Origin: Brachybacterium saurashtrense
GTDB taxonomy: Bacteria > Actinomycetota > Actinomycetes > Actinomycetales > Dermabacteraceae
Direction of reading: 5' to 3'
NCBI RefSeq assembly: GCF_003355475.1
Contig: NZ_CP031356.1
Span: 3,224,001 to 3,288,000 of the forward strand
DNA: 64,000 bases
Shown here: piece by piece, positions 5,882-48,355 of the stretch
Numbering within the stretch: position 1 is the stretch's first letter
Layout of the letters: every line of letters begins with the position of its first letter
Position numbers and translations under genes: made by a program
The notes under the pieces: model-generated
Told to the model about the DNA's origin: nothing
The model's input: the letters and a program-made list of their open reading frames with translations, nothing else
Database searches by the model: none

Positions 5882-7810
5882 TCAGAGGTAGTGGCGCTGC
5901 CCCACGCGCTGGTTCTCGTAGACGGTGCGCGCCTCGCGGGTGGACTCGAGCGTGGAGACCTCGGAGACGGGCACGTCCCACCAGCCGTTGCCGGGCGGGT
6001 TCGGGCCGTACAGGTTCGTGTTCACCACGATCGCGGTGGCGGTCTCGGAGGCCTCGGCGCGGCGGTACGCCTCACGGAAGGCCTCGGTGTCGGAGACCTC
6101 CTGCACGTCGATGCCGTAGGAGCGGATGTTGGCGGGGATGTCCAGCGGGACCAGCCCGCCGTCCAGCAGGCCGGATTTCTCGTCGCGCATGCGGTACTTG
6201 GTGCCGAAGCGCTGGCTGCCGTGCGACTCGGAGAGCGAGCCGATCGAGGACCAGCCGTGGTTCTGGAGGATCACCAGGATCACCTTCACCCGCTCGGAGA
6301 CGATGGTGGCGATCTCCTGCGGCGCCATCTGGAAGGTGCCGTCGCCGATGATCGCGACCACCTCGGACTCCGGTGCGGCCATCTTCGCGCCCAGCGAGGC
6401 GGGCAGCTCGTAGCCCATGCAGGAGAAGCCGTACTCGAGGTGGTACTGCAGCGGCGAACGGGCCTTCCACAGCGCCTGCAGGTCGCCGGGCATGGAGCCG
6501 GCGGCGTTGATCACGATGTCCTGATCGCCCATCATCTCGTTGAGCGCGCCGAAGATCTCGGTCTGGGCGGGCAGCTCCTGATCGTGTGGGGCGAAGCAGG
6601 GGGCCACCAGCTCCTCCCACTCGGCGCGCAGGGCGCGGGCGCGGTCGACGTGCGCGGAGGGGGCCCCGTACTCGGCCAGCGCCTCGCGCAGGGCGTCGAG
6701 ACCGGCGCGCGCATCGGCCACCACCATGGTCGCGGAGTGCTTGGCGGCGTCGAAGGCCTTGACGTTGAGGTTCACGAAGCGCACGTCCGCGTTCCGGAAG
6801 GCGGTGTGGGAGGCGGTGGTGAAGTCGGTGTAGCGGGTGCCCACGCCGATCACCACGTCGGCCTCCGCGGCGAGGTCGTTGGCGGCGTTGTTGCCGGTGG
6901 CGCCCACGCCGCCCACGCACAGCGGATGGTCGGCGCTGAGCGCGCCCTTGCCGGCCTGGGTGTCGAGCACGGGGATCGAGGTGGCGTCGGTGAACGCCGC
7001 CAGCGCCTCGCTCGCCTCGGAGTAGATCGCACCGCCGCCGGCGATCACCACGGGCCGCTGCGCGGAGCGGATCACCTCGACGGCGCGGTCGAGGGCGGCG
7101 GGCTCGGGCACCGGGCGGCCCACGTGCCAGGTGCGCTCGCGGAAGAACTCCAGCGGCCAGTCGAAGGCCTCGGCCTGGACGTCCTGCGGCAGGGAGAGGG
7201 TCACCGCGCCGGTCTCGGCGGGATCGGTGAGCACGCGCATGGCCTGCAGCGCGGCGGGGATCAGCTGCTCGGGCCGGGAGATGCGGTCGAAGTAGCGCGA
7301 GACGGGCCGGAAGGCGTCGTTGACGGAGACGTCCCCGCCGGTCTCGTCCTCGAGCTGCTGCAGCACCGGGTCGACGGCGCGGGTGGCGAAGATGTCGCTG
7401 GGCAGCAGCAGCACCGGGATGCGGTCGATCGTGGCCAGCGCCGCGCCGGTGACCATGTTGGTGGAGCCGGGGCCGATGGAGGCGGTGCAGGCGAAGGCCT
7501 GCATCCGGTTCTTCGTGCGGGCGTAGGCCACGGCCGTGTGCACCATGTTCTGCTCGTTGCGGGCCATGTGGAAGGGCATCGGCGCCTGGCCCTCGGCCGG
7601 CTCCAGGGCGTTCTGCAGCAGCGCCTGGCCGAGGCCGGCCACGTTGCCGTGGCCGAAGATCCCGAACGCGCCGGGGATGAGGCGGTCGCGCACCCCGTCC
7701 CGCTCGGAGTACTGGGCGGCCAGGAACCGCACCAGCGCCTGGCCGACGGTCAGGCGGACCGTGCCGGCGGGGCGGTCGCTCCGGTCGGGCGCCGTGGGGT
7801 TCTCGCTCAT
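5882..7810 (-). CDS. iolD: 3D-(3,5/4)-trihydroxycyclohexane-1,2-dione hydrolase
   Basis: This 642-residue thiamine-diphosphate enzyme hydrolyses the cyclic 1,2-dione to 5-deoxy-glucuronate, opening the inositol ring. It has the three-domain architecture of ThDP enzymes. The N-terminal PYR domain has the activating Glu in FHMARNEQNMVH near residue 86 and ASIGPGSTNMVTGAA. A central domain contains VIAGGGAIYS. The C-terminal PP domain has the ThDP/Mg motif GDGTFQMAPQEI near 488 with its downstream Asn in LQNHGWSSIG. IolD-specific signs are FGIFGHGNVAGLGQAL near the start and the length of about 640 residues. The ATG at 7810 is preferred over upstream in-frame codons because GGAGG lies 5 bp ahead of it and the earlier residues lack family similarity. 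It is the first gene of the leftward arm. Confidence 0.95.
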   Translation of the reverse strand: MSENPTAPDRSDRPAGTVRLTVGQALVRFLAAQYSERDGVRDRLIPGAFGIFGHGNVAGLGQALLQNALEPAEGQAPMPFHMARNEQNMVHTAVAYARTKNRMQAFACTASIGPGSTNMVTGAALATIDRIPVLLLPSDIFATRAVDPVLQQLEDETGGDVSVNDAFRPVSRYFDRISRPEQLIPAALQAMRVLTDPAETGAVTLSLPQDVQAEAFDWPLEFFRERTWHVGRPVPEPAALDRAVEVIRSAQRPVVIAGGGAIYSEASEALAAFTDATSIPVLDTQAGKGALSADHPLCVGGVGATGNNAANDLAAEADVVIGVGTRYTDFTTASHTAFRNADVRFVNLNVKAFDAAKHSATMVVADARAGLDALREALAEYGAPSAHVDRARALRAEWEELVAPCFAPHDQELPAQTEIFGALNEMMGDQDIVINAAGSMPGDLQALWKARSPLQYHLEYGFSCMGYELPASLGAKMAAPESEVVAIIGDGTFQMAPQEIATIVSERVKVILVILQNHGWSSIGSLSESHGSQRFGTKYRMRDEKSGLLDGGLVPLDIPANIRSYGIDVQEVSDTEAFREAYRRAEASETATAIVVNTNLYGPNPPGNGWWDVPVSEVSTLESTREARTVYENQRVGQRHYL

Positions 7811-7924
7811 GCTGCCTCCGTTGTGCAGGCCCGCCGCGCGGGGGCGGGGCGTGGGTGGCACCGTCGGACGCGGTCCACTCGACGGTGAGTTCGTCAGCCC
7901 CCAGCATGGACCGCCCGTGGCGAC

Positions 7925-7948
7925 ATGTCAAGACAATGTCAGGACAAG
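7925..7948. promoter_or_regulatory. Tandem IolR-like operator upstream of iolD
   Basis: Two overlapping copies of ATGTCnnGACAA occur head to tail: ATGTCAAGACAAT at 7925-7937 and ATGTCAGGACAAG at 7936-7948. The same near-palindrome is found upstream of iolC (11572-11584) and of the gntR gene (17422-17435). TGTCnnGACA fits nine or so positions of the KGWCHTRACA motif I remember for the GntR-type IolR repressor of Corynebacterium glutamicum. Binding is inferred. Confidence 0.72.
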
Positions 7949-8132
7949 ATTCTCCGCGACGTTCGCCCTGTTCGGAGCGGTTTCGCCCGGCTCCAGCACG
8001 CCTCGAGGGCTTCCGGAGGGCCGAGATGCCGTGCTAGCTTGCCGCCAGGTTCGTACGGCGAAGCCCAAAAGACCGGACAAGCCAGCCAGTCGTTGCCGAC
8101 GAAGCCTGACATATCGGGCGCTCCGGCGCCCC

Positions 8133-8184
8133 GCCGCACGTCAGCCGGCCGCACTCTGGCCGGCCGCACGTCAGCCTGCCGCAC
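8133..8184. repeat. 22-bp direct repeat in the iol divergent region
   Basis: The segments 8133-8154 and 8163-8184 are identical except for one base (GCCGCACGTCAGCC followed by G or T, then GCCGCAC), with a period of 30 bp. They lie in the presumed leader or promoter of the rightward arm. No function can be assigned. Confidence 0.8.
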
Positions 8185-8375
8185 GCCCGCCGACTCGCAC
8201 TCCGACGACGGGGTGCGGATCCCGGCCTCAGGAGGGGCCACCGCCCCGCCTTGGCGTCGGCCCGCTCGAGCCCCACCCGCACGCCGCCCCTCGTAGGTCG
8301 CTCCCCGCGAGCCCGTCCGCACACCGCTCCCGCGCACCGCGCGCCTCGCACGACCTCCCCAAAAGGATGTGCCCC

Positions 8376-9569
8376 ATGGCCACCACCCCGCTCTCCGTCG
8401 CCGTGATCGGCGCCGGCATGGCCGGCCGCACCCACGCCAACGCCTGGCGCCAGGCCGGCACCGTCTACGACCTGGGGCTGCCGCCGGTGCGGCTGGCCGC
8501 GATCGCCGACGCCCACCTGCCCTTCGCGGAGGACGCCGCCGCGCACTACGGCTACGAGAAGGCCGTGGGCGACTGGCGCGACGTCGCCGAGGACGACTCC
8601 ATCGACATCGTCTCCATCGTGGTGGGCAACGCCCTGCACCGCGAGATCGCCGAGGCGATGGCCGCCGCCGGCAAGCACGTGCTGTGCGAGAAGCCCCTGG
8701 CCGGCACCCTCGAGGACGCCGCGGCGATGGCCGAGCTCGAGCAGCGCCACCCCGACCTGGCGCTCGCCACCGGCTACACCTTCCGCCGCAACGCCGGAAT
8801 CGCCATGCTCGCCAAGCTCGCCGCCGAGGGCGCGCTCGGCACGATCGCCCACCTCGACGCCCGCTACTGGACCGACTACGGCGCCGACGAGAACGTGCCG
8901 ATGGCCTGGCGGTACAAGGGCCCCATGGGCTCGGGCGCGCTGGGCGACGTGGGCTCCCACCTGGTGGACTCCGCCGAGCTGATCCTCGGCCCGCTGGTGG
9001 AGGTCTCCGGCGCGCAGCTGGTGCAGACCATCACCGAACGGCCCGTCGCCTCGGACGCGGTCGCGGGAGGCCGCGGGGTCACCGCGAACGCCGACGCCCC
9101 CAAGGAGCCCGTGGAGAACGACGACGTCGCCACCTTCACCGCACGCTTCGCCTCCGGCGCGGCCGGCACCTTCTCCGTGTCCCGCGTGGCCCAGGGCCTG
9201 CCCAACTACAAGGCGCTGACCGTGCTGGGCACCGGTGGGACCGCCAGCTGGTCCCTGGACCGCACCGGCGAGATCCAGGTGGCGGACCGCACCTCCCCGG
9301 AGGGTCTGGGCGGTCTGCGCCAGGTGCTGGTCAACCCCGAGTTCCCCTACTTCGCGAACGGCTCTTCGATGGCCTTCGGCGGCGTGGGCCTGAACCAGAT
9401 CGAGCAGTTCACCTACCAGGCCCACGCCTTCCTGCAGCAGGTCGCCGGCATCACCGAGAACGCGCTGCCGCGCTGCGCGAGCTTCGCCGACGGCTACCGT
9501 CAGATGCGGATCCTCGACGCCGTGGCCCGCTCGGCCGCCGCCGGGGGCGCCGCGATCACCCTCGACTGA
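8376..9569 (+). CDS. Gfo/Idh/MocA family oxidoreductase (second copy)
   Basis: This 397-residue NAD(P)-dependent dehydrogenase has VAVIGAGMAGRTHANAW at the N-terminus as dinucleotide motif, VLCEKPLAGTLEDA as the EKP motif, and a C-terminal domain containing WRYKGPMGSGALGDVGSHL. Its best visible resemblance is to larger Gfo/Idh proteins acting on sugars and sugar acids rather than to the short IolG at 14658. The ATG at 8376 follows AAAAGGA with an 8-bp gap. It opens the rightward arm and is followed 302 bp later by a TIM-barrel isomerase. Oxidation of an inositol stereoisomer or a methylated inositol is plausible but unproven. It is not closely similar to the 391-residue Gfo/Idh protein at 1124-2299. 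Confidence 0.9.
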   Translation: MATTPLSVAVIGAGMAGRTHANAWRQAGTVYDLGLPPVRLAAIADAHLPFAEDAAAHYGYEKAVGDWRDVAEDDSIDIVSIVVGNALHREIAEAMAAAGKHVLCEKPLAGTLEDAAAMAELEQRHPDLALATGYTFRRNAGIAMLAKLAAEGALGTIAHLDARYWTDYGADENVPMAWRYKGPMGSGALGDVGSHLVDSAELILGPLVEVSGAQLVQTITERPVASDAVAGGRGVTANADAPKEPVENDDVATFTARFASGAAGTFSVSRVAQGLPNYKALTVLGTGGTASWSLDRTGEIQVADRTSPEGLGGLRQVLVNPEFPYFANGSSMAFGGVGLNQIEQFTYQAHAFLQQVAGITENALPRCASFADGYRQMRILDAVARSAAAGGAAITLD

Positions 9570-9749
9570 GGCCGACGGGGCGGGCCGCGGCCGCCGTGCG
9601 TGTCGGCCGCCGCTCCCGTCGGCCGCTCGCACGCCGACCCGCTCGCCCGCTCGACCCCATCGCCCGCCCGTCGCGCCCACCCATCCCGATACGCGGCGCA
9701 ACTGTCGGATTCCGAGCCACTTTCGGCGCGGATCTGGTTCAGAATCCGG

Positions 9750-9816
9750 CACTTCGCACTTCGCACTTCGCACTTCGCACTTCGCACTTCGCACTTCGCA
9801 CTTCGCACTTCGCACT
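9750..9816. repeat. Heptanucleotide tandem repeat (CACTTCG)9
   Basis: Nine perfect copies of CACTTCG run from 9750 to 9812, followed by a partial CACT. The tract lies in the 302-bp gap after the Gfo/Idh gene, ending about 55 bp before the start codon at 9872. The rest of the gap is GC-rich with repeated GTCGGCCG words and no gene. A 7-bp unit in this position is prone to slippage and would change promoter or leader spacing in 7-bp steps. Confidence 0.97.
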
Positions 9817-9871
9817 CCACCTCGTCTCCGCCGCCGACCCGTCGGCGGCACACCCCGAAAGGGCCCCCGCC

Positions 9872-10894
9872 ATGGCACTCACCTACGGCGCCTACACCGC
9901 CTGCCTGCAGGGCCGCACGCTCGAGGAGGCGCTGGACGTCCTCGCCGCCGCCGGGCTCTCCGGCGCGGAGATCAACACCGGCGGTTTCATCCCCGCCCCG
10001 CACGCCCCCGTGGACCTGCTGCTGGCCAGCGAGCGGGCGCGCACCGACTACCTGCGGATCTTCAAGGAGCGCGGCATCGCGCTCACCGGTCTGACCGTCT
10101 CCGGCAACCCGCTCTCGCCCCTGCCCACCGAGGGCCTGCCGCGCGCCCACGACCTGCGCCGCACCATCGAGCTGGCCGGGAAGCTCGGCGTGCGCGACGT
10201 GGTGGCGATGTCCGGCACCCCTGGCACCGACGCGGGCGCCCGCTACCCGGCGTGGATCGTGAACCCCTGGAACGGCATCGACCTCGAGATCCTTGAGTAC
10301 CAGTGGTCCGTGGCGGTGCCCTTCTGGAAGGAGATCGACGCCCTCGCCCGGGAGCACGACGTGCAGGTGGCGCTCGAGATGCACCCGCGCAACCTGGTGT
10401 TCTCCCCGCTCACCTTCGAGCAGTTCGCCCAGCGGGTGGAGCCCACGAACATCGGCGTGAACCTCGACCCCTCGCACCTGTACTGGCAGCAGATGGACCC
10501 TATCGCCTGCATCGAGCGGCTCGGCCGGCACATCACCCACGTGCACGCCAAGGACACCGCCGTGCTGCCCGGCGCGGCCCTGCGCGGCGTGCTGGACACC
10601 GTCTTCGGCCCGGTGCCGGAGGATCCCGCGCAGCGCACCCCCACCGGCATCGGCCACTACTGCTCCACCTGGCCCGAGGACCCGGCCTGGCGCTTCGTGG
10701 CGCTCGGCGAGGGGCACACCCCCGGCCAGACGCACGACGTCGACTACTGGGCGAGCGTGCTCGCGGCGCTGGCCGCCGTGAACCCCGCGCTGAACGTCAA
10801 CATCGAGCACGAGGACGCCGCCTACTCGCAGGTGGACGGCCTCGAGCGCGGCGCCCGCACCCTGCTGGCCGCCGCCGAGCGCGCCGGCGTCTGA
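9872..10894 (+). CDS. Sugar phosphate isomerase/epimerase (TIM barrel)
   Basis: This 340-residue AP-endonuclease-2/xylose-isomerase-like barrel shows likely metal-binding residues: VALEMHPRNLVF (Glu and His), NIGVNLDPSHLYWQ (Asp and His), THVHAKDTA (His) and NVNIEHEDAAY near the C-terminus. This E-D-H-E arrangement is the standard metal site of IolE/IolI-type and ketose 3-epimerase-type barrels. It is about 50 residues longer than IolI, with an insertion around 235-270 (GIGHYCSTWPEDPAW). It follows the 8376 Gfo/Idh gene and precedes the tautomerase, probably in one transcript. It may be an inosose isomerase, the real inosose dehydratase, or an epimerase for another cyclitol. The ATG at 9872 has only a weak ribosome-binding site (GAAAGGG). 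Confidence 0.87.
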   Translation: MALTYGAYTACLQGRTLEEALDVLAAAGLSGAEINTGGFIPAPHAPVDLLLASERARTDYLRIFKERGIALTGLTVSGNPLSPLPTEGLPRAHDLRRTIELAGKLGVRDVVAMSGTPGTDAGARYPAWIVNPWNGIDLEILEYQWSVAVPFWKEIDALAREHDVQVALEMHPRNLVFSPLTFEQFAQRVEPTNIGVNLDPSHLYWQQMDPIACIERLGRHITHVHAKDTAVLPGAALRGVLDTVFGPVPEDPAQRTPTGIGHYCSTWPEDPAWRFVALGEGHTPGQTHDVDYWASVLAALAAVNPALNVNIEHEDAAYSQVDGLERGARTLLAAAERAGV

Positions 10895-41382: not shown

Positions 41383-42045
41383 TCAGCGCCGCCGCAGCAC
41401 CACCACCGCGTCCAGGTGCTCGCCCTCGGTCCCGTCGGGGCCCACGGCCGGGCGCCGACGTTCCTCGGCGAGCTCCACCGCCCAGTCCGCGGCGGGCTGG
41501 GCGAGCTGCTCCACCTCGGCGCGCACGTCGATCATCGCCGCGGGATGCTCCGCCGCCCAGGACGGCGGGGCCGCGTGCGAGACCGTGACCAGGTGCCCGC
41601 CCGTGCGCAGCGCCGAGGCCGCCCGCTGCAGGATCCCCAGCCTGTCCAGCGCCACCTGCGACTGGAAGAACGAGGCGGTGACCAGGTCGACGGACTCCGC
41701 CTCCGGCTGCCAGGCGCTGAGATCCGTCGCCGTGAACAGTGCCTGCTCGAGGCCTCGCCCCGCCGCCTCGGCGCGGGCGCGCTCGATCGCGGTGGCGGAG
41801 ATGTCCAGGCCGCGGGCCGTCCAGCCCTGCTCCGCCAGCCACAGCACGTCCCCGCCCTCGCCACAGCCCAGATCGATCGAGATGCCCGGCTCGAGCTCCG
41901 CCACCACCTGCGCCATCGTGCCGTTGACCGTCCCCGACCACACCCGCTCGCTGCCGCTGTAGCGCTGCTCCCAGTGCTCGGCGGGGGAGAGGGACGGATC
42001 AGGCTGGGAGTGCGGGGCGGAGCCGTGGGCGTGATGCGCGGTCAT
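41383..42045 (-). CDS. Class I SAM-dependent methyltransferase
   Basis: This 220-residue methyltransferase has motif I ISIDLGCGEGGDVLWLAEQG near residues 55-74, the acidic loop ARGLDISATAIERARAEA, and motif IV-like VDLVTASFFQSQVALDR. The final strand contains HLDAVVVLRRR. The fold and the N-terminal SLSPAEHWEQRYSGSERVW resemble thiopurine-type or TehB-like methyltransferases that act on small molecules. The ATG at 42045 fits the domain start, though its ribosome-binding site is weak. It is convergent with the small membrane protein gene and divergent from the acyltransferase gene. Confidence 0.88.
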   Translation of the reverse strand: MTAHHAHGSAPHSQPDPSLSPAEHWEQRYSGSERVWSGTVNGTMAQVVAELEPGISIDLGCGEGGDVLWLAEQGWTARGLDISATAIERARAEAAGRGLEQALFTATDLSAWQPEAESVDLVTASFFQSQVALDRLGILQRAASALRTGGHLVTVSHAAPPSWAAEHPAAMIDVRAEVEQLAQPAADWAVELAEERRRPAVGPDGTEGEHLDAVVVLRRR

Positions 42046-42135
42046 GCCACGAGCCTGGCAGACGTGGCCGGGGTGGGGAAGCGGAGTTGCCGAGATCGGG
42101 AGGGAGGGGTGGGGGGAACAAGCGTGTGGCGCCAC

Positions 42136-43563: not shown

Positions 43564-44526
43564 ATGTGGTCTGAGGGTGACGAGTTGAAGCTTCGCAAAG
43601 AAGCTATGCAATGGCTCGCCGCGTGGACAAACGACGGGCTCGACGCGATTTCATACGCCGACCTCGGTGACTTCCATTTTTGCGGCGAAGCGTTCGCGCT
43701 AAAAGATCGACAGCTTGGCGTTAGGAAGCCGGCCGGCATGGACAGCGCATTGTCTATTGCCACTGCATACCGAGCGCCGGGCAGAGAGCGTCCTTATGAT
43801 GATGTTCTCGGTCGTGATGGTCTCATGCGGTACAAATGGGACGGAGATGATCCCAATAAGTATACGAACCGCGGACTTCGCTCTGCAATGAGTGAGAAGC
43901 GCCCGCTTATATGGTTTTGGGGTGTTGCTCCAGCGATGTACAAGCCAATATTTCCGGTTTATGTCGTCGCAGAGGAGCCAGAAGACAAGCAGTTCGTCAT
44001 TGCCACTGACGGGCTTCAGAACATCGAGTCGACGGGGCAAGATGTCGATGAGGTGACAAAGAGGTACGTGCTCCAGGAGACGCGCAGGCGTCTGCATCAG
44101 CCGGTTTTCCGCGGGCTAGTGATGCAAGCGTACGGAACTCGCTGCTCGATCTGCAGGCTGCGGCACTCGACGCTTCTGGATGCCGCCCATATCATCCCAG
44201 ATGCCGACCCTGGTGGGGTTGCGGCGGTGCGAAACGGTATAGCGCTGTGCAAAATTCATCATGCTGCTTACAACTCAGGCATAATTGGCATTTCGCCCGA
44301 CTATGTGCTCGGGGTGCGTGAAGATGTTTTGAAGGAAATTGACGGACCGATGCTCGAGTTTGGCCTTAAGGGCCTTCATGGAGATAGGCTGAAGGTGTTG
44401 CCTTCGTCAAAGAAGGAGCGCCCGGATCGAGAGCTACTGGAGCACCAGTATCGGCGGTTCGAGGCTGGCTCTGTGCCCCGAGCGCTCCGTGTGGATTTTT
44501 TGCACTCTAAGGGTTGGGATGGATAG
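43564..44526 (+). CDS. HNH restriction endonuclease-like protein (COG3440 type)
   Basis: This 320-residue protein has a C-terminal HNH nuclease: a CxxC zinc pair in TRCSICRLRH (about 194-197), then LLDAAHIIPDADPGG with the catalytic His near 208, and NGIALCKIHHAAYNSGIIGI with Asn and His. The N-terminal part has a PUA-like recognition segment (RYKWDGDDPNKYTNR, PLIWFWGVAPAMYKPIFPVY), the layout of predicted restriction endonucleases of COG3440. Such enzymes may cut foreign or modified DNA; no methyltransferase partner is nearby. Base composition is about 52 % GC in sampled lines, with A/T-ending codons, far from the roughly 72 % of its neighbours, so recent acquisition is likely. There is no clear ribosome-binding site at the ATG. 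Confidence 0.85.
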   Translation: MWSEGDELKLRKEAMQWLAAWTNDGLDAISYADLGDFHFCGEAFALKDRQLGVRKPAGMDSALSIATAYRAPGRERPYDDVLGRDGLMRYKWDGDDPNKYTNRGLRSAMSEKRPLIWFWGVAPAMYKPIFPVYVVAEEPEDKQFVIATDGLQNIESTGQDVDEVTKRYVLQETRRRLHQPVFRGLVMQAYGTRCSICRLRHSTLLDAAHIIPDADPGGVAAVRNGIALCKIHHAAYNSGIIGISPDYVLGVREDVLKEIDGPMLEFGLKGLHGDRLKVLPSSKKERPDRELLEHQYRRFEAGSVPRALRVDFLHSKGWDG

Positions 44527-44777: not shown

Positions 44778-47700
44778 CTATGCCACCGCTCGAGCCTCCA
44801 TGAACAGTTCGGCTGGCATCGCCCGATCCAATCGCCACACGATCTGCATCGGTCGCGACCCCGTCGCCTGCTGGAACTGTGCTGTCCCGAGGCAGGTGTA
44901 GGGCTCGGTGCCGATGTCGCCCGTTTTCGCACGCCTTACGAAGAGAACCACGCTCGATCCGCGGGCGGCGTGGTTGATGTACCTCTGACCGGTGCGACTC
45001 TCCACGCTCGTCGTGCTCTGCGACTCCCAGTGGAAGAGGTCCTGGTTGATCGCGAAGTCGCGATACATGGTCGTGGGGGAGTAGTCCGCTTCGGACTTCT
45101 TCAGCGTCACGAGCAGAGCGTCCACGCTCGTGCCCGGCAACCACTTCACCCCTTCGCGAATTGAGCCGGGCGCTCCAGTGTCTAGGGTGCCAAGGCCCAG
45201 TCCGGCGAGCAGCTCCTCCCGGGAGTACCGGGCGTGCGATCGCAGCGGTGACTGCGCTGCGGAGCCTGACAGCCGTGCCGGACGAACCCGAGACGACTGG
45301 TCCTGGTACTCCAGCACGTGGAGCAGTTCCTCTACCACTGCAGGATGTGCCCGGAGCTGCTCGAGGCCGGTGCGAACACTGTGCTCCCCGGAGGGCCAGA
45401 AGGAGAACACGAGCATTGCGGCATAGAGGTCGGTGTCGACTCCGGCCGGAAGAGTGGGCTCGGTGAGGAGCCGGCGGTACGCCCGGATCCGCTCGGGATC
45501 GTCGACGTGAGTCAGGGTGCCGACCCGGCGCAAGAGAGAGTCGGCAGTCTCCGAACGCGTCTCCTCTCGGGTGGCGGGGAAGGCCCAGTCCACGAGCGTG
45601 GACCAGCTTGCCGAGCGCTTCTCTCCGCTTAGGCTGCGCGTCCCCGGCCCGTATACGTCTGCGAGAGACCGCTCTGCCGCATCGAGGTAGGTGCCCAGGG
45701 CGTAGTTGCTCGGTGAGGCATCCTCGGGCTTGTGCTGGCGGACATCTGCGACCAGATCCCTCGTCGAGAGTTTCAGTTGCTTCTTCACGTTCTTGAGCAC
45801 GATGTCCTGCGCGACGCGATCGAACACGATCTGCGTGCCCGGAGGGAGGAACGGGAAGCCGTCGCGGATGCTGCGCTCGAGTTTGTTCCTCGACAGGCCC
45901 GTCAGTGCCCGGTACTTCAGGTCAAAGCGGAAGTTCGTGTGCTGGAGTCCGACGAAGTCGAGCACTGTCAGTACCGCCTTGTTCTCCGCTCGGCGGAGCC
46001 CGCGCCCAAGCTGTTGCAGGAAGATTGTCGCTGACTGGGTGGGTCGGAGCATCAGCACGGTATCGACCATGGGGATATCGAGACCTTCATTGAAGAGATC
46101 GACGGCGAACAGGCAGACGATGTCGCCGCGGCGCAACTTTGCGAGGCCCTCCTGCCGTTCGTCGGAGCCGGAGTCTCCCGTGAGAGCCAGCGAGGGGAGG
46201 CCAGCACGGCGGAACACCTCCGCCATGTAGTGCGCGTGCTCGACGCTGACACAGAACCCGAGTGCCTTCATGCGGCTGGGGTCAGTCACCTTGTCGCGCA
46301 GCGCCTGGAGCACCTTGCCGGCCCGCGCATCATTGCCGGTGTACAGGGAGTTCAGCTGGGTGATGTTGTAAGCGCCGCGGGTGAATCGCACCCCACTGAG
46401 GTCCACACCGTCCGCGAGGCCGAAGTAGTGGAAGGGGACTAGGAGATCCGCGCTGAGCGCGTCCCAGAGCCGTAGCTCGCTGGCGATCCGTCCCTCGAAG
46501 AAGGCATGAGCAACGTCGATGCCATCGGCGCGCTCCGGCGTGGCGGTGAGTCCAAGAAGCTCACGAGGCGTGAAGTACTCGAGAACCTTGCGGTACGTCG
46601 CAGCCTCCGCGTGATGGAACTCGTCGATCACGATGATGTCGAAGTGATCGCGAGCCCATCGCTCCAGCTCACCCGCCTGCTGTAGCGATTGAATCGACGC
46701 GAACACATGGCGGCGGCGCACGGGCTTGTGGCCGCCGACGAAAAGCTCGCCAAATGCACCGTCCTTCAGAACGTCGCGGTAGGTCCGTAGTGACTGCTCA
46801 AGGATCTCTTTGCGGTGCGCGATGAAGAGGATTGTCGGCTGATCAGCCTCCGACGAGCGCAGTCGCTTGTAGTCCAGCGCCGCGACCACCGTCTTCCCGG
46901 TGCCGGTCGCTGCGACCACGAGGTTCTTGTGGCGGTCGTGCACCTCGCGCTCGGCGGCGAGGTCATCCAGCATCTCGATCTGATGCGGGTACGGGCGCAC
47001 ATCGAGATGGCTGATGGACAGGCTCGGAGACGAGGAGCGGCCGCTGTTCTTCTCGAGCAGGGCATCCAGATACTCGGCATCTTCGTCGGGGTCGTATGGA
47101 GCGAATGCGGCATCGTCCCAGTACGTCTCGAAGGTCGACTCGAACTTGTCCACGAGGCTCGGCGTGGCGAGGCGCGACAGGCGTACGTTCCACTCCAGGC
47201 CGTCCACGAGCGCCGCCCTGCTCATATTTGAACTGCCTACGTACGCGGTGGTGTAGCCGCTGGACCGATGGAACATCCACGCCTTGGCGTGCAGGTGCGT
47301 GGATTGGGCGTCGTAGTTGACCCGCACTTCGGCGTTCAGCGACCGCACGAAGTGGTCCAGCGCTTTGCGGTCGGTAGCGCCGATATACGTAGTGGTGAGC
47401 ACTCTGATCGGCACGCCGCGCTCGGCGGCCTCCCGGAGGGCGGATTCCAGTACCCGTATCCCGCTCCACTGCGCGAACGCGCACAGCAGATCGATGCGAT
47501 CAGCGCTCGCCATCTCAAGGCGCAACTCCGATCCCAGCTGCGGATCCATCCGTGAGTTTGTGAAGAGCGCGACGTCGCTGAGCGGTGTGGACGGCCGCGG
47601 CACGCGGGGAGCGTCTGGTGTGCTCACCGACGTGAGGAGCCGCGGACCCGGGGAGACCGACGGATCCATTGGTGCTTCCGGCAAGGTCTGCAACAGCCGG

Positions 47701-47918
47701 TTCGCAAGGGCGATACGGTCCTCGCGCGGCGCGGCGATCAGGGCCTGCTCGACAGTCCGCGCGACGTGCTGCGTGAGAACGTGGGCGACGTCTTCATCGT
47801 CCACATCCTCCGTCGGCGTGAGGAAGCCTCTTTCCTCCGCGCTCTGCACCGACTCCGCCAGCCCAGTGGTGATAAGCAGCTCGTAGAGCCCGGGGTCAAG
47901 TGCCTGCTTGCTCTCCAT
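44778..47918 (-). CDS. PLD-domain SF2 helicase with DUF3427
   Basis: This protein of about 1046 residues has three modules. A phospholipase-D-like nuclease domain (about 130-265) carries HLHAKAWMFHRSS and VGSSNMSRAAL; the HxK is present but the Asp expected four residues on is replaced, as in relatives. A superfamily 2 helicase (about 310-660) has VVAATGTGKTVVAALD (Walker A near 338), VIDEFHHAEA (motif II near 431), LGLTATPERADG (III) and FLQQLGRGLRRAENK (VI). The C-terminal third matches DUF3427. Such proteins occur in defence-associated loci. Start: the ATG at 47918 lies 4 bp behind AGGAGG, while a GTG at 47921 overlaps the NUDIX stop. GC is a little below the flanks. Confidence 0.9.
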   Translation of the reverse strand: MESKQALDPGLYELLITTGLAESVQSAEERGFLTPTEDVDDEDVAHVLTQHVARTVEQALIAAPREDRIALANRLLQTLPEAPMDPSVSPGPRLLTSVSTPDAPRVPRPSTPLSDVALFTNSRMDPQLGSELRLEMASADRIDLLCAFAQWSGIRVLESALREAAERGVPIRVLTTTYIGATDRKALDHFVRSLNAEVRVNYDAQSTHLHAKAWMFHRSSGYTTAYVGSSNMSRAALVDGLEWNVRLSRLATPSLVDKFESTFETYWDDAAFAPYDPDEDAEYLDALLEKNSGRSSSPSLSISHLDVRPYPHQIEMLDDLAAEREVHDRHKNLVVAATGTGKTVVAALDYKRLRSSEADQPTILFIAHRKEILEQSLRTYRDVLKDGAFGELFVGGHKPVRRRHVFASIQSLQQAGELERWARDHFDIIVIDEFHHAEAATYRKVLEYFTPRELLGLTATPERADGIDVAHAFFEGRIASELRLWDALSADLLVPFHYFGLADGVDLSGVRFTRGAYNITQLNSLYTGNDARAGKVLQALRDKVTDPSRMKALGFCVSVEHAHYMAEVFRRAGLPSLALTGDSGSDERQEGLAKLRRGDIVCLFAVDLFNEGLDIPMVDTVLMLRPTQSATIFLQQLGRGLRRAENKAVLTVLDFVGLQHTNFRFDLKYRALTGLSRNKLERSIRDGFPFLPPGTQIVFDRVAQDIVLKNVKKQLKLSTRDLVADVRQHKPEDASPSNYALGTYLDAAERSLADVYGPGTRSLSGEKRSASWSTLVDWAFPATREETRSETADSLLRRVGTLTHVDDPERIRAYRRLLTEPTLPAGVDTDLYAAMLVFSFWPSGEHSVRTGLEQLRAHPAVVEELLHVLEYQDQSSRVRPARLSGSAAQSPLRSHARYSREELLAGLGLGTLDTGAPGSIREGVKWLPGTSVDALLVTLKKSEADYSPTTMYRDFAINQDLFHWESQSTTSVESRTGQRYINHAARGSSVVLFVRRAKTGDIGTEPYTCLGTAQFQQATGSRPMQIVWRLDRAMPAELFMEARAVA

Positions 47919-48355
47919 CACGCCTCCTCAGCCTGTGTGCGAAGAGCGTGGAGCCGTTCAGGAAGGACGCTGATGATCGGGACGTCGCCAGGGGCCCACT
48001 CGAGAGATGCGAGGTCGTCGAGCGGTACCCACTGCATCGCGTCGTGATCGCTGCTCGAGACGGGATCAGTGCCGCAGAACTGCGCTGAGTAGCAGGCGAG
48101 CTCAATGCGGGATGTCCCTATGTTGGTGAGGCTCCGCTCGACTAGCGGCCCCACGGAGATGTCGATGCTCAGCTCTTCCTGGAGCTCTCGTCGCAGCGCA
48201 GCCTCGGGCGATTCGCCAATCTCGACCTTGCCGCCCGGGAACTCCCACAGGCCACCGGCGCTGCGGTCGGCATTCCGTCGCGCGGCGAACACCGCCCCGC
48301 CGCGTTCGACGATAGCGCCCACGACGCGGATGACTGCCTTCTCCACCGTGGTCAC
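47918..48355 (-). CDS. NUDIX hydrolase, (deoxy)nucleoside triphosphate pyrophosphohydrolase
   Basis: This MutT-like protein of about 145 residues contains the Nudix box GGKVEIGESPEAALRRELQE and, continuing directly, ELSIDI, which completes GX5EX7REUXEEXGU. The N-terminus AVIRVVGAIVERGGAVFAAR and LWEFPGG are typical of 8-oxo-dGTP / dCTP pyrophosphatases. It would hydrolyse damaged or non-canonical (d)NTPs to monophosphates. Its stop overlaps the helicase start, so the two are coupled. Start: the GTG at 48355 has AGGAG immediately in front of it; a GTG at 48346, three codons later, has better spacing from the same site and may be the true start. Confidence 0.92.
   Translation of the reverse strand: MTTVEKAVIRVVGAIVERGGAVFAARRNADRSAGGLWEFPGGKVEIGESPEAALRRELQEELSIDISVGPLVERSLTNIGTSRIELACYSAQFCGTDPVSSSDHDAMQWVPLDDLASLEWAPGDVPIISVLPERLHALRTQAEEA

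Follow-up and report, generated by a model that had tools for sequence, protein, structure and literature searches.

The closest described relative of the system reported here is SauUSI, an enzyme made up of a PLD nuclease with the motif H(X)K(X)4E, an SF2 ATPase, a coupler and an SRA domain that reads 5-methylcytosine, and reported to act as a restriction barrier (PMC7913695). SauUSI alone is sufficient for restriction when cloned in E. coli (PMC3874153). CglI and NgoAVII likewise combine a PLD nuclease with an SF2 ATPase, but are described as two-subunit systems with B3 and Z1 domains (PMC7913695), whereas the enzyme considered below is one chain with an SRA-like end. This enzyme is encoded in a 64,000-nucleotide stretch of Brachybacterium saurashtrense (contig NZ_CP031356.1, positions 3,224,001 to 3,288,000; hereafter, the window), from a genome assembled as a single contig of 3.72 Mb. 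The sequence-only reading of the window had proposed an overlapping pair of genes at 44778–48355, for a Nudix hydrolase and a PLD-SF2-DUF3427 protein, as a candidate defence system that could not be matched to a named one. Both open reading frames were confirmed on the minus strand, and the coupled pair very probably serves as defence against DNA parasites. The lack of a named counterpart did not survive, because the counterpart of the large protein is SauUSI, which in S. aureus records is itself paired with such a Nudix. The class of the enzyme is an ordinary finding; its strikingly conserved Nudix partner is where the interest lies.

The large protein (47921 or 47918 to 44778, minus strand) can be called a SauUSI-type (type IV) restriction enzyme with high confidence. 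It matched the Pfam models PLDc_2 (7.6e-12), ResIII (1.6e-37), Helicase_C (5.3e-14) and DUF3427 (2.4e-18), while the PADLOC model mREase_IV (PDLC03659) scored 1070.8 bits across residues 108–1045. By far the best solved relative was SauUSI itself (PDB 7clg, E = 3.2e-94), which aligned with residues 135–670 plus a C-terminal stretch. The order of domains was the same in both proteins: a PLD-type nuclease (47118–47447, minus strand; residues 159–268), an SF2 helicase-like ATPase (45927–46997, minus strand; approximately residues 309–665) and an SRA-like target recognition domain at the C-terminus, which is part of 'DUF3427' (44781–45227, minus strand; approximately residues 899–1047). They also share the catalytic His and Lys, the Walker A and DExH motifs, the equivalents of SauUSI Asp858 and Trp868, and a Nudix gene directly upstream. 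They differ in that identity was 34.3% over residues 119–680 of the window enzyme, which has about 90 extra residues ahead of the nuclease (its residue 135 aligns with SauUSI residue 46), has His where SauUSI has Glu after the HxK motif, and has Val925 in place of SauUSI Tyr831. Within the nuclease, His211, Lys213 and Gly229-Ser-Ser-Asn232 were present and position 218 was His, not Asp, just as the earlier description of a PLD motif with HxK and GSSN but no Asp had stated. Across 129 aligned homologues, a set in which some loci were counted twice with different flanks, the His was kept in all 129 and the Lys in 127, while the Asp position was occupied mostly by H, K, R, E, Y or D. The absent Asp is no anomaly, the residue at this variable position being Glu in SauUSI. 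The motor was intact in its Walker A (Lys343-Thr344) and Asp433-Glu-x-His (433–436) motifs, and its distant relatives included the DNA repair helicase RadD.

The end of the enzyme is well supported, by modelling and profile comparison, as a putative reader of modified cytosine. DUF3427 has been predicted to bind modified DNA (PMC7159879). A profile of the last 248 residues together with ten relatives produced a sole match at a limit of E = 1, which was residues 738–953 of 7clg (E = 7.5e-41). An AlphaFold2 model of the same 248 residues had a mean predicted local distance difference test score (pLDDT) of 81.8, and when it was compared with solved structures using Foldseek, only SauUSI and SUVH6 were found at E ≤ 0.001, one entry of which contained methylated DNA. 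MspJI, the SRA domain of SUVH5, AbaSI, KRYPTONITE, SUVH9 and PvuRts1I followed at E = 0.0013–0.07. Query TM-scores were modest, at 0.53 for SauUSI chain A and 0.29–0.42 for the other matches. HMMER alignments placed Asp955 opposite SauUSI Asp858 and Trp965 opposite Trp868, the Asp being conserved in 74 of 83 rows and the Trp in 67; SauUSI Phe841 and Ile842 were replaced conservatively, by Leu937 and Val938. In the same alignments, Val925 took the place of SauUSI Tyr831. Tyr was present at this column in 27/51 Nudix-linked enzymes and in 2/32 unlinked ones, counts that include some near-duplicate rows and ignore relatedness; the near-confinement of Tyr to Nudix-linked enzymes may reflect ancestry or a real functional link.

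The partner gene (48355–47918, minus strand) encodes a 145-residue predicted (deoxy)nucleoside triphosphate pyrophosphohydrolase, with a Pfam NUDIX match of 1.2e-19 and both of the Nudix-box Glu columns examined intact. On sequence comparison it is nearer to NudG than to MutT, with identities of 41% to E. coli NudG (126 aligned residues), 33% to MutT and 35% to the S. aureus Nudix protein. MutT Asn119 has a role in 8-oxoguanine recognition; this column contained Asp in the window Nudix, in NudG, and in all 54 enzyme-linked and all four HNH-linked rows. The NCBIfam MutT models remained below their cut-offs (70.8 versus 97.9 and 75 versus 148 bits); NudG was the best model, yet it too was below its cut-off (92.5 versus 156 bits), and the protein is likened to NudG only in how it may work, and not classed as such. 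The top structural matches were PDB 5x1x ('Mutator mutT protein', E = 1.2e-19) and, tied with it, 2rrk. The latter is NudG (Orf135), a pyrophosphohydrolase of 5-methyl-deoxycytidine triphosphate (5-methyl-dCTP), CTP and dCTP that shares the Nudix fold and box with the window protein. One published table gives NudG a kcat/Km of 1,300 for 5-methyl-dCTP against 47 for CTP, in the units of that table (PMC5158307). The E. coli gene differs in its setting, since its neighbours are ynjF and ynjH and no restriction gene adjoins it. In a phylogeny of Nudix sequences, all linked rows fell within a clade of 118 rows (97/91) that also held 60 unlinked rows and excluded MutT. The linkage label required 21 changes on this tree, versus 44.9 for shuffled labels.

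The Nudix protein was also matched by PADLOC PDC-S07 (136.8 bits, E = 8.4e-41; the library output states no cut-off). PDC-S07 carries the label of a single-gene phage defence candidate, with no partner or mechanism in the library output; its three best matches in the phylum sample adjoined SauUSI-like genes. Elsewhere, a high-scoring PDC-S07 Nudix (9688–10161 of locus L111, genome G275) began 5 nt after a 643-residue ATPase-like gene (7751–9682), which we take to resemble a DUF2075-type protein.

The two genes of the window overlap whichever start is chosen. Initiation at GTG 47921 would give a 4-nt overlap and an enzyme of 1047 residues, while initiation at ATG 47918 would give a 1-nt overlap (TGATG) and 1046 residues, a length that fits the roughly 1046 residues given by the sequence-only reading. 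The junction between Nudix stop and enzyme start reads GTGATG, and a Shine-Dalgarno-like AGGAGG (47923–47928, minus strand), as read from the sequence, lies within the Nudix gene, 4 nt ahead of the ATG.

The enzyme was patchily distributed, and where it occurred in the genus it was accompanied by the Nudix gene almost without exception. It was found in 13 of 38 genus genomes, and in 12 of these 13 the Nudix gene adjoined it: ten by coordinates, and two on broken contigs (G018, and G017, where only part of the Nudix gene is on the contig). In the thirteenth (G344) the contig begins inside the enzyme gene. Genomes of the genus carry further Nudix copies elsewhere. Across the phylum, the enzyme was present in 26 of 296 Actinomycetota genomes, the window's included. 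A SauUSI-like model was found in 64 of 348 Bacillota genomes (73 places) and in 31 of 247 Bacteroidota genomes (33 places). Nudix genes lay within 85 nt in 12 of the 30 best-scoring Bacillota loci and in 17 of the 30 Bacteroidota loci opened; these sets include centre genomes chosen for the pair, without which the values were 11/29 and 16/29, and several of the loci scored as having no Nudix end near a contig edge. Linkage in Bacillota followed score, with a Nudix beside 12 of the 14 best loci (951–1054 residues) and beside none of the 16 that followed, 13 of them with genes of at most 838 residues or cut short. These lower-scoring Bacillota genes (L281–L296) were mostly about 790–840 residues long. 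When the Nudix protein was used for the scan instead, 10 of 80 named loci contained a SauUSI-like gene above 60 bits within approximately 7 kb (one of them, L132, being a weak partial match), and 70 did not. Pairs found in this way came from Actinomycetota, Bacillota, Bacteroidota, Spirochaetota, an Opitutia bin and a doubtfully labelled Pseudomonadota bin. One Bacillaceae locus (L138) had a single Nudix gene flanked on both sides by SauUSI-like genes.

Control loci showed that this pairing is far beyond chance. None of the best 30 listed Bacillota HsdR loci had an adjacent Nudix of this kind within 1.5-kb flanks, nor did any of three Bacillota RE_AspBHI_N loci, and among the best 30 of 43 Bacillota McrC places, where flanks of this size would miss a Nudix beyond McrB, a Nudix stood beside only one (L374), and that Nudix adjoins a SauUSI-like gene. 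Co-occurrence of the pair, which the sequence-only reading had asked to be scored, was upheld (12/13 in the genus, 12/30 in Bacillota and 17/30 in Bacteroidota, against 0/30 for HsdR and 1/30 for McrC). Three arrangements were seen among 50 linked rows, with the Nudix gene upstream on the same strand in 34, downstream and convergent in 12, and downstream on the same strand in four. Protein distances of Nudix and enzyme were correlated in these rows, with one genome entered twice and with shared ancestry contributing to the correlation (Mantel r = 0.69, or 0.65 without the genus; 0/2000 permutations as high). It is very likely, on this evidence, that the Nudix is functionally tied to the SauUSI-type enzyme. 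A wider role as partner of all type IV enzymes was considered and dropped, given the McrC (1/30) and RE_AspBHI_N (0/3) values; the generalisation had single cases behind it, namely a Nudix near AspBHI-like and GmrSD-like genes (L199) and another beside a pair comprising McrB-like and DUF2357-PDDEXK_7 genes (L162). Of ten genes scanned next to unlinked Nudix genes (7 of 18 loci), five were ordinary, two encoded nucleases or helicases (both at L162) and three had no Pfam match. In one Bacteroidota locus (L301), McrBC genes directly adjoined a Nudix-SauUSI pair.

The pair was also found with SauUSI itself. In the stretch of S. aureus NZ_CP077890.1 analysed (L194), the last base of the Nudix gene is at 8909 and the ATG of SauUSI at 8911, and the same order and frames were seen in a contig that was deposited under the name of a Staphylococcus phage with S. 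aureus as host (L437). The S. aureus Nudix encoded 1 nt upstream of SauUSI was identical to PDB 5x1x over the residues given in the PDB alignment (2–125); that entry is labelled MutT and is 35% identical to the window Nudix. The enzyme occurred in 21 plasmid records, six of which were opened; the pair was present in those of S. aureus, Latilactobacillus and Hymenobacter canadensis, and not in those of Peptoclostridium, Pseudoalteromonas and Arthrobacter. A Lactiplantibacillus plasmid found through its Nudix also carries the pair, followed there by a gene for a MazG-like nucleotide pyrophosphohydrolase (L201:9313–9633), a second possible gene acting on the deoxynucleotide pool. Among viral contigs, the search with the enzyme gave one weak relative, and none of 37 Nudix loci had a SauUSI-like gene above 150 bits in its flanks. 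Several restriction genes were disrupted: one was split by approximately 1.65 kb (L101, G332), one lay in two overlapping frames (L113, G017), one contained a single in-frame TAA (L144) and that of the S. aureus record (L194) ended early. The neighbouring Nudix frame was uninterrupted across its domain in L101, L144 and L194, and only part of it was present in L113.

The explanation that best accommodates these observations as a whole, and to which we give about an even chance, is that the two genes form a type IV restriction operon of the SauUSI family, with a dedicated Nudix hydrolase of 5-substituted dCTP. The SRA-like end of the enzyme would recognise modified cytosine in incoming DNA, the ATPase would move along the DNA and a dimer of the PLD nuclease would cut it; this is the mechanism reported for SauUSI, extended to the window enzyme on the strength of fold, domains and residues. 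In a SauUSI-type enzyme, such cleavage would be expected to depend on ATP, to act on 5mC/5hmC DNA and to need two sites. The co-translated Nudix would hydrolyse 5-methyl-dCTP, and possibly 5-hydroxymethyl-dCTP, to the monophosphate. That its substrate is a 5-substituted dCTP is itself an evenly balanced proposition, and the removal of modified nucleotides, raised by the sequence-only reading, is still the best lead to its role. By this activity the Nudix would keep 5-substituted dCTP, whether recovered from the breakdown of phage DNA or arising through damage, out of the host chromosome, which the partner enzyme would otherwise cut; it may also starve phages of modified dCTP. Protection of the host as the main purpose of the Nudix is a tentative and rather doubtful suggestion. 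Taken more broadly, the results would fit a two-level surveillance of modified cytosine across several phyla, SauUSI included, in which the Nudix polices the nucleotide pool and the co-inherited SRA-PLD enzyme polices DNA, such that the Nudix would either let cells harbour a suicidal restriction enzyme in safety or prevent phages from making modified DNA; we hold this to be plausible, at slightly less than even. The analysis itself shows the class of the enzyme, the SRA-like fold of its end, the conservation of adjacency and the NudG-like Asp; the exact mark recognised, the Nudix substrate and the biological role are what we infer.

A number of observations weigh against this explanation. The linkage was far from universal: 20 of 23 Actinomycetota loci opened outside the genus (from 21 of the other 25 phylum genomes plus two genomes of the same order) had no Nudix and only three had one adjacent, while 18 of the 30 Bacillota loci lacked it, 16 of these being the lower-scoring ones. 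The analogy with NudG is imperfect, not only in the unmet NCBIfam cut-off but because E. coli NudG lay outside the 118-row clade of linked sequences; Asp at the MutT Asn119 column was also present in 88 of 93 unlinked Nudix rows; and the RefSeq name of NudG is 5-hydroxy-CTP diphosphatase. Furthermore, the table that lists 5-methyl-dCTP also has 2-OH-dATP as a likely substrate of NudG, for which there is knock-out evidence (PMC5158307). As for the enzyme, Tyr831 is proposed as a methyl contact in SauUSI (PMC7913695), and its replacement by Val925 means that the mark recognised may differ from that of SauUSI. Cutting does not require the Nudix, since SauUSI is sufficient in E. coli, although that host has NudG of its own. 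A shield against every 5mC-dependent nuclease would be expected at McrBC as well, and the lack of Nudix linkage there weighs most heavily against a general role in protecting the host; it also leaves room for a direct regulatory partnership.

Such a partnership, in which the Nudix would restrain or license a dangerous nuclease, either by binding it or by controlling the concentration of a nucleotide sensed by it, is quite improbable overall. It would account for a linkage seen with SauUSI-like genes and absent at McrC and HsdR loci, and for the co-variation of the two proteins, and the translational overlap favours a fixed stoichiometry. SauUSI, however, is reported to be active as a single polypeptide in vitro, as well as alone in E. 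coli (PMC3874153), where it is described as using ATP or dATP, while the reported substrates of NudG are mainly cytidine nucleotides and not ATP. The idea in the sequence-only reading of a nucleotide signal steering the helicase met with neither support nor contradiction in this analysis. Another unlikely, though not negligible, explanation is that the Nudix attacks precursors, destroying the modified dCTP made by phages (e.g., 5-hydroxymethyl-dCTP). Phages would then face cleavage by the SauUSI-type enzyme if their DNA is modified and ordinary restriction if it is not, with both escapes closed. This invokes the same class of substrate as the dedicated-hydrolase explanation, and both the strong linkage to a modified-cytosine restriction enzyme and the presence of the pair on plasmids are in its favour. 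We know of no phage with an affected pool in these hosts, and modified dCTP is, to our knowledge, made by only a minority of phages. Moreover, McrBC is also reported to cut DNA containing 5-hydroxymethylcytosine (PMC3874153), yet shows no Nudix linkage.

Two explanations would remove the connection between the Nudix and defence, or defence altogether. The Nudix might be an ordinary MutT-type cleaner of 8-oxo-dGTP that entered the operon by chance, as the occurrence of related Nudix genes without a SauUSI-like gene at 70 of 80 named loci, and of further copies in the genus, would allow. Asp instead of MutT Asn119 speaks against this, and the recurrent adjacency (three arrangements in at least four phyla, against 0/30 and 1/30 in controls), together with the co-variation, leaves such hitch-hiking strongly disfavoured and very improbable. 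A core DNA-repair operon would be in keeping with RadD among the distant relatives of the motor, but is effectively refuted by the patchy distribution of the enzyme (13/38 genus and 26/296 phylum genomes), and sits poorly with a place in a low-GC (guanine-cytosine) island, with an SRA-like recognition domain and with SauUSI itself being described as a restriction barrier (PMC7913695). The sequence-only reading had named, as the case that would undo its proposal, a repair operon that is core and passed on vertically in every relative; instead, the enzyme is absent from most genus genomes and the stretch has a GC content of 62.5%.

That stretch, whose flanks have GC contents of 73.0% and 71.9%, contains a further gene, convergent with the pair, for an HNH_2 nuclease of 320 residues (43564–44526, plus strand). 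Its G-C content at third codon positions was 0.60, versus 0.95 in the preceding acyltransferase gene. The HNH_2 gene is probably a separate restriction gene and no required part of the pair. It was rejected as a third component: among the opened genus loci it was present only in the window and in G002, and four plasmid homologues opened, out of 79 matching records, had no Nudix within 3.5 kb. An HNH homologue does stand beside a related Nudix in G002 (L107), and a homologue in two frames beside a Nudix in Brevibacterium (L116), while other HNH_2 proteins adjoin a Nudix on Sphingomonas and Priestia plasmids. In G002, the HNH and Nudix genes lie beside the same acyltransferase and methyltransferase genes as in the window, without the restriction enzyme. 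The structural model of the HNH protein was poor (mean pLDDT 36.2), its N-terminal part had no credible PDB match, and a profile of it reached PDB 6yex, in its HNH part, and more weakly TagI; that it reads modifications, as an SRA- or EVE-type protein would, is a speculative idea. A search of viral contigs with this protein found nothing. The two-gene operon contained no cognate DNA methyltransferase, and the one nearby methyltransferase scanned (41383–42060) matched Methyltransf_25, TPMT and similar Pfam types.

The open-access literature searched offered no published explanation of the Nudix-SauUSI pairing, nor was a restriction system that has its own nucleotide-pool enzyme encountered there. 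The word 'Nudix' occurs 0 times in the main text of the SauUSI structure paper (PMC7913695), and small 'DNA repair' proteins beside Streptococcus homologues of SauUSI are identified in a figure legend as MutT homologues (PMC7641849). SauUSI counts among the main barriers to gene transfer in S. aureus, and is treated in the literature consulted as a one-gene system. That a Nudix gene has been kept beside the enzyme through rearrangement in several phyla suggests that the working unit is often a pair, and PDB 5x1x, named MutT, may have its real job beside SauUSI. If the Nudix clears 5-methyl- or 5-hydroxymethyl-dCTP, this would explain how cells tolerate an enzyme that cuts chromosomes containing modified cytosine; alternatively, it would represent a layer of defence that attacks the precursors of phage DNA.

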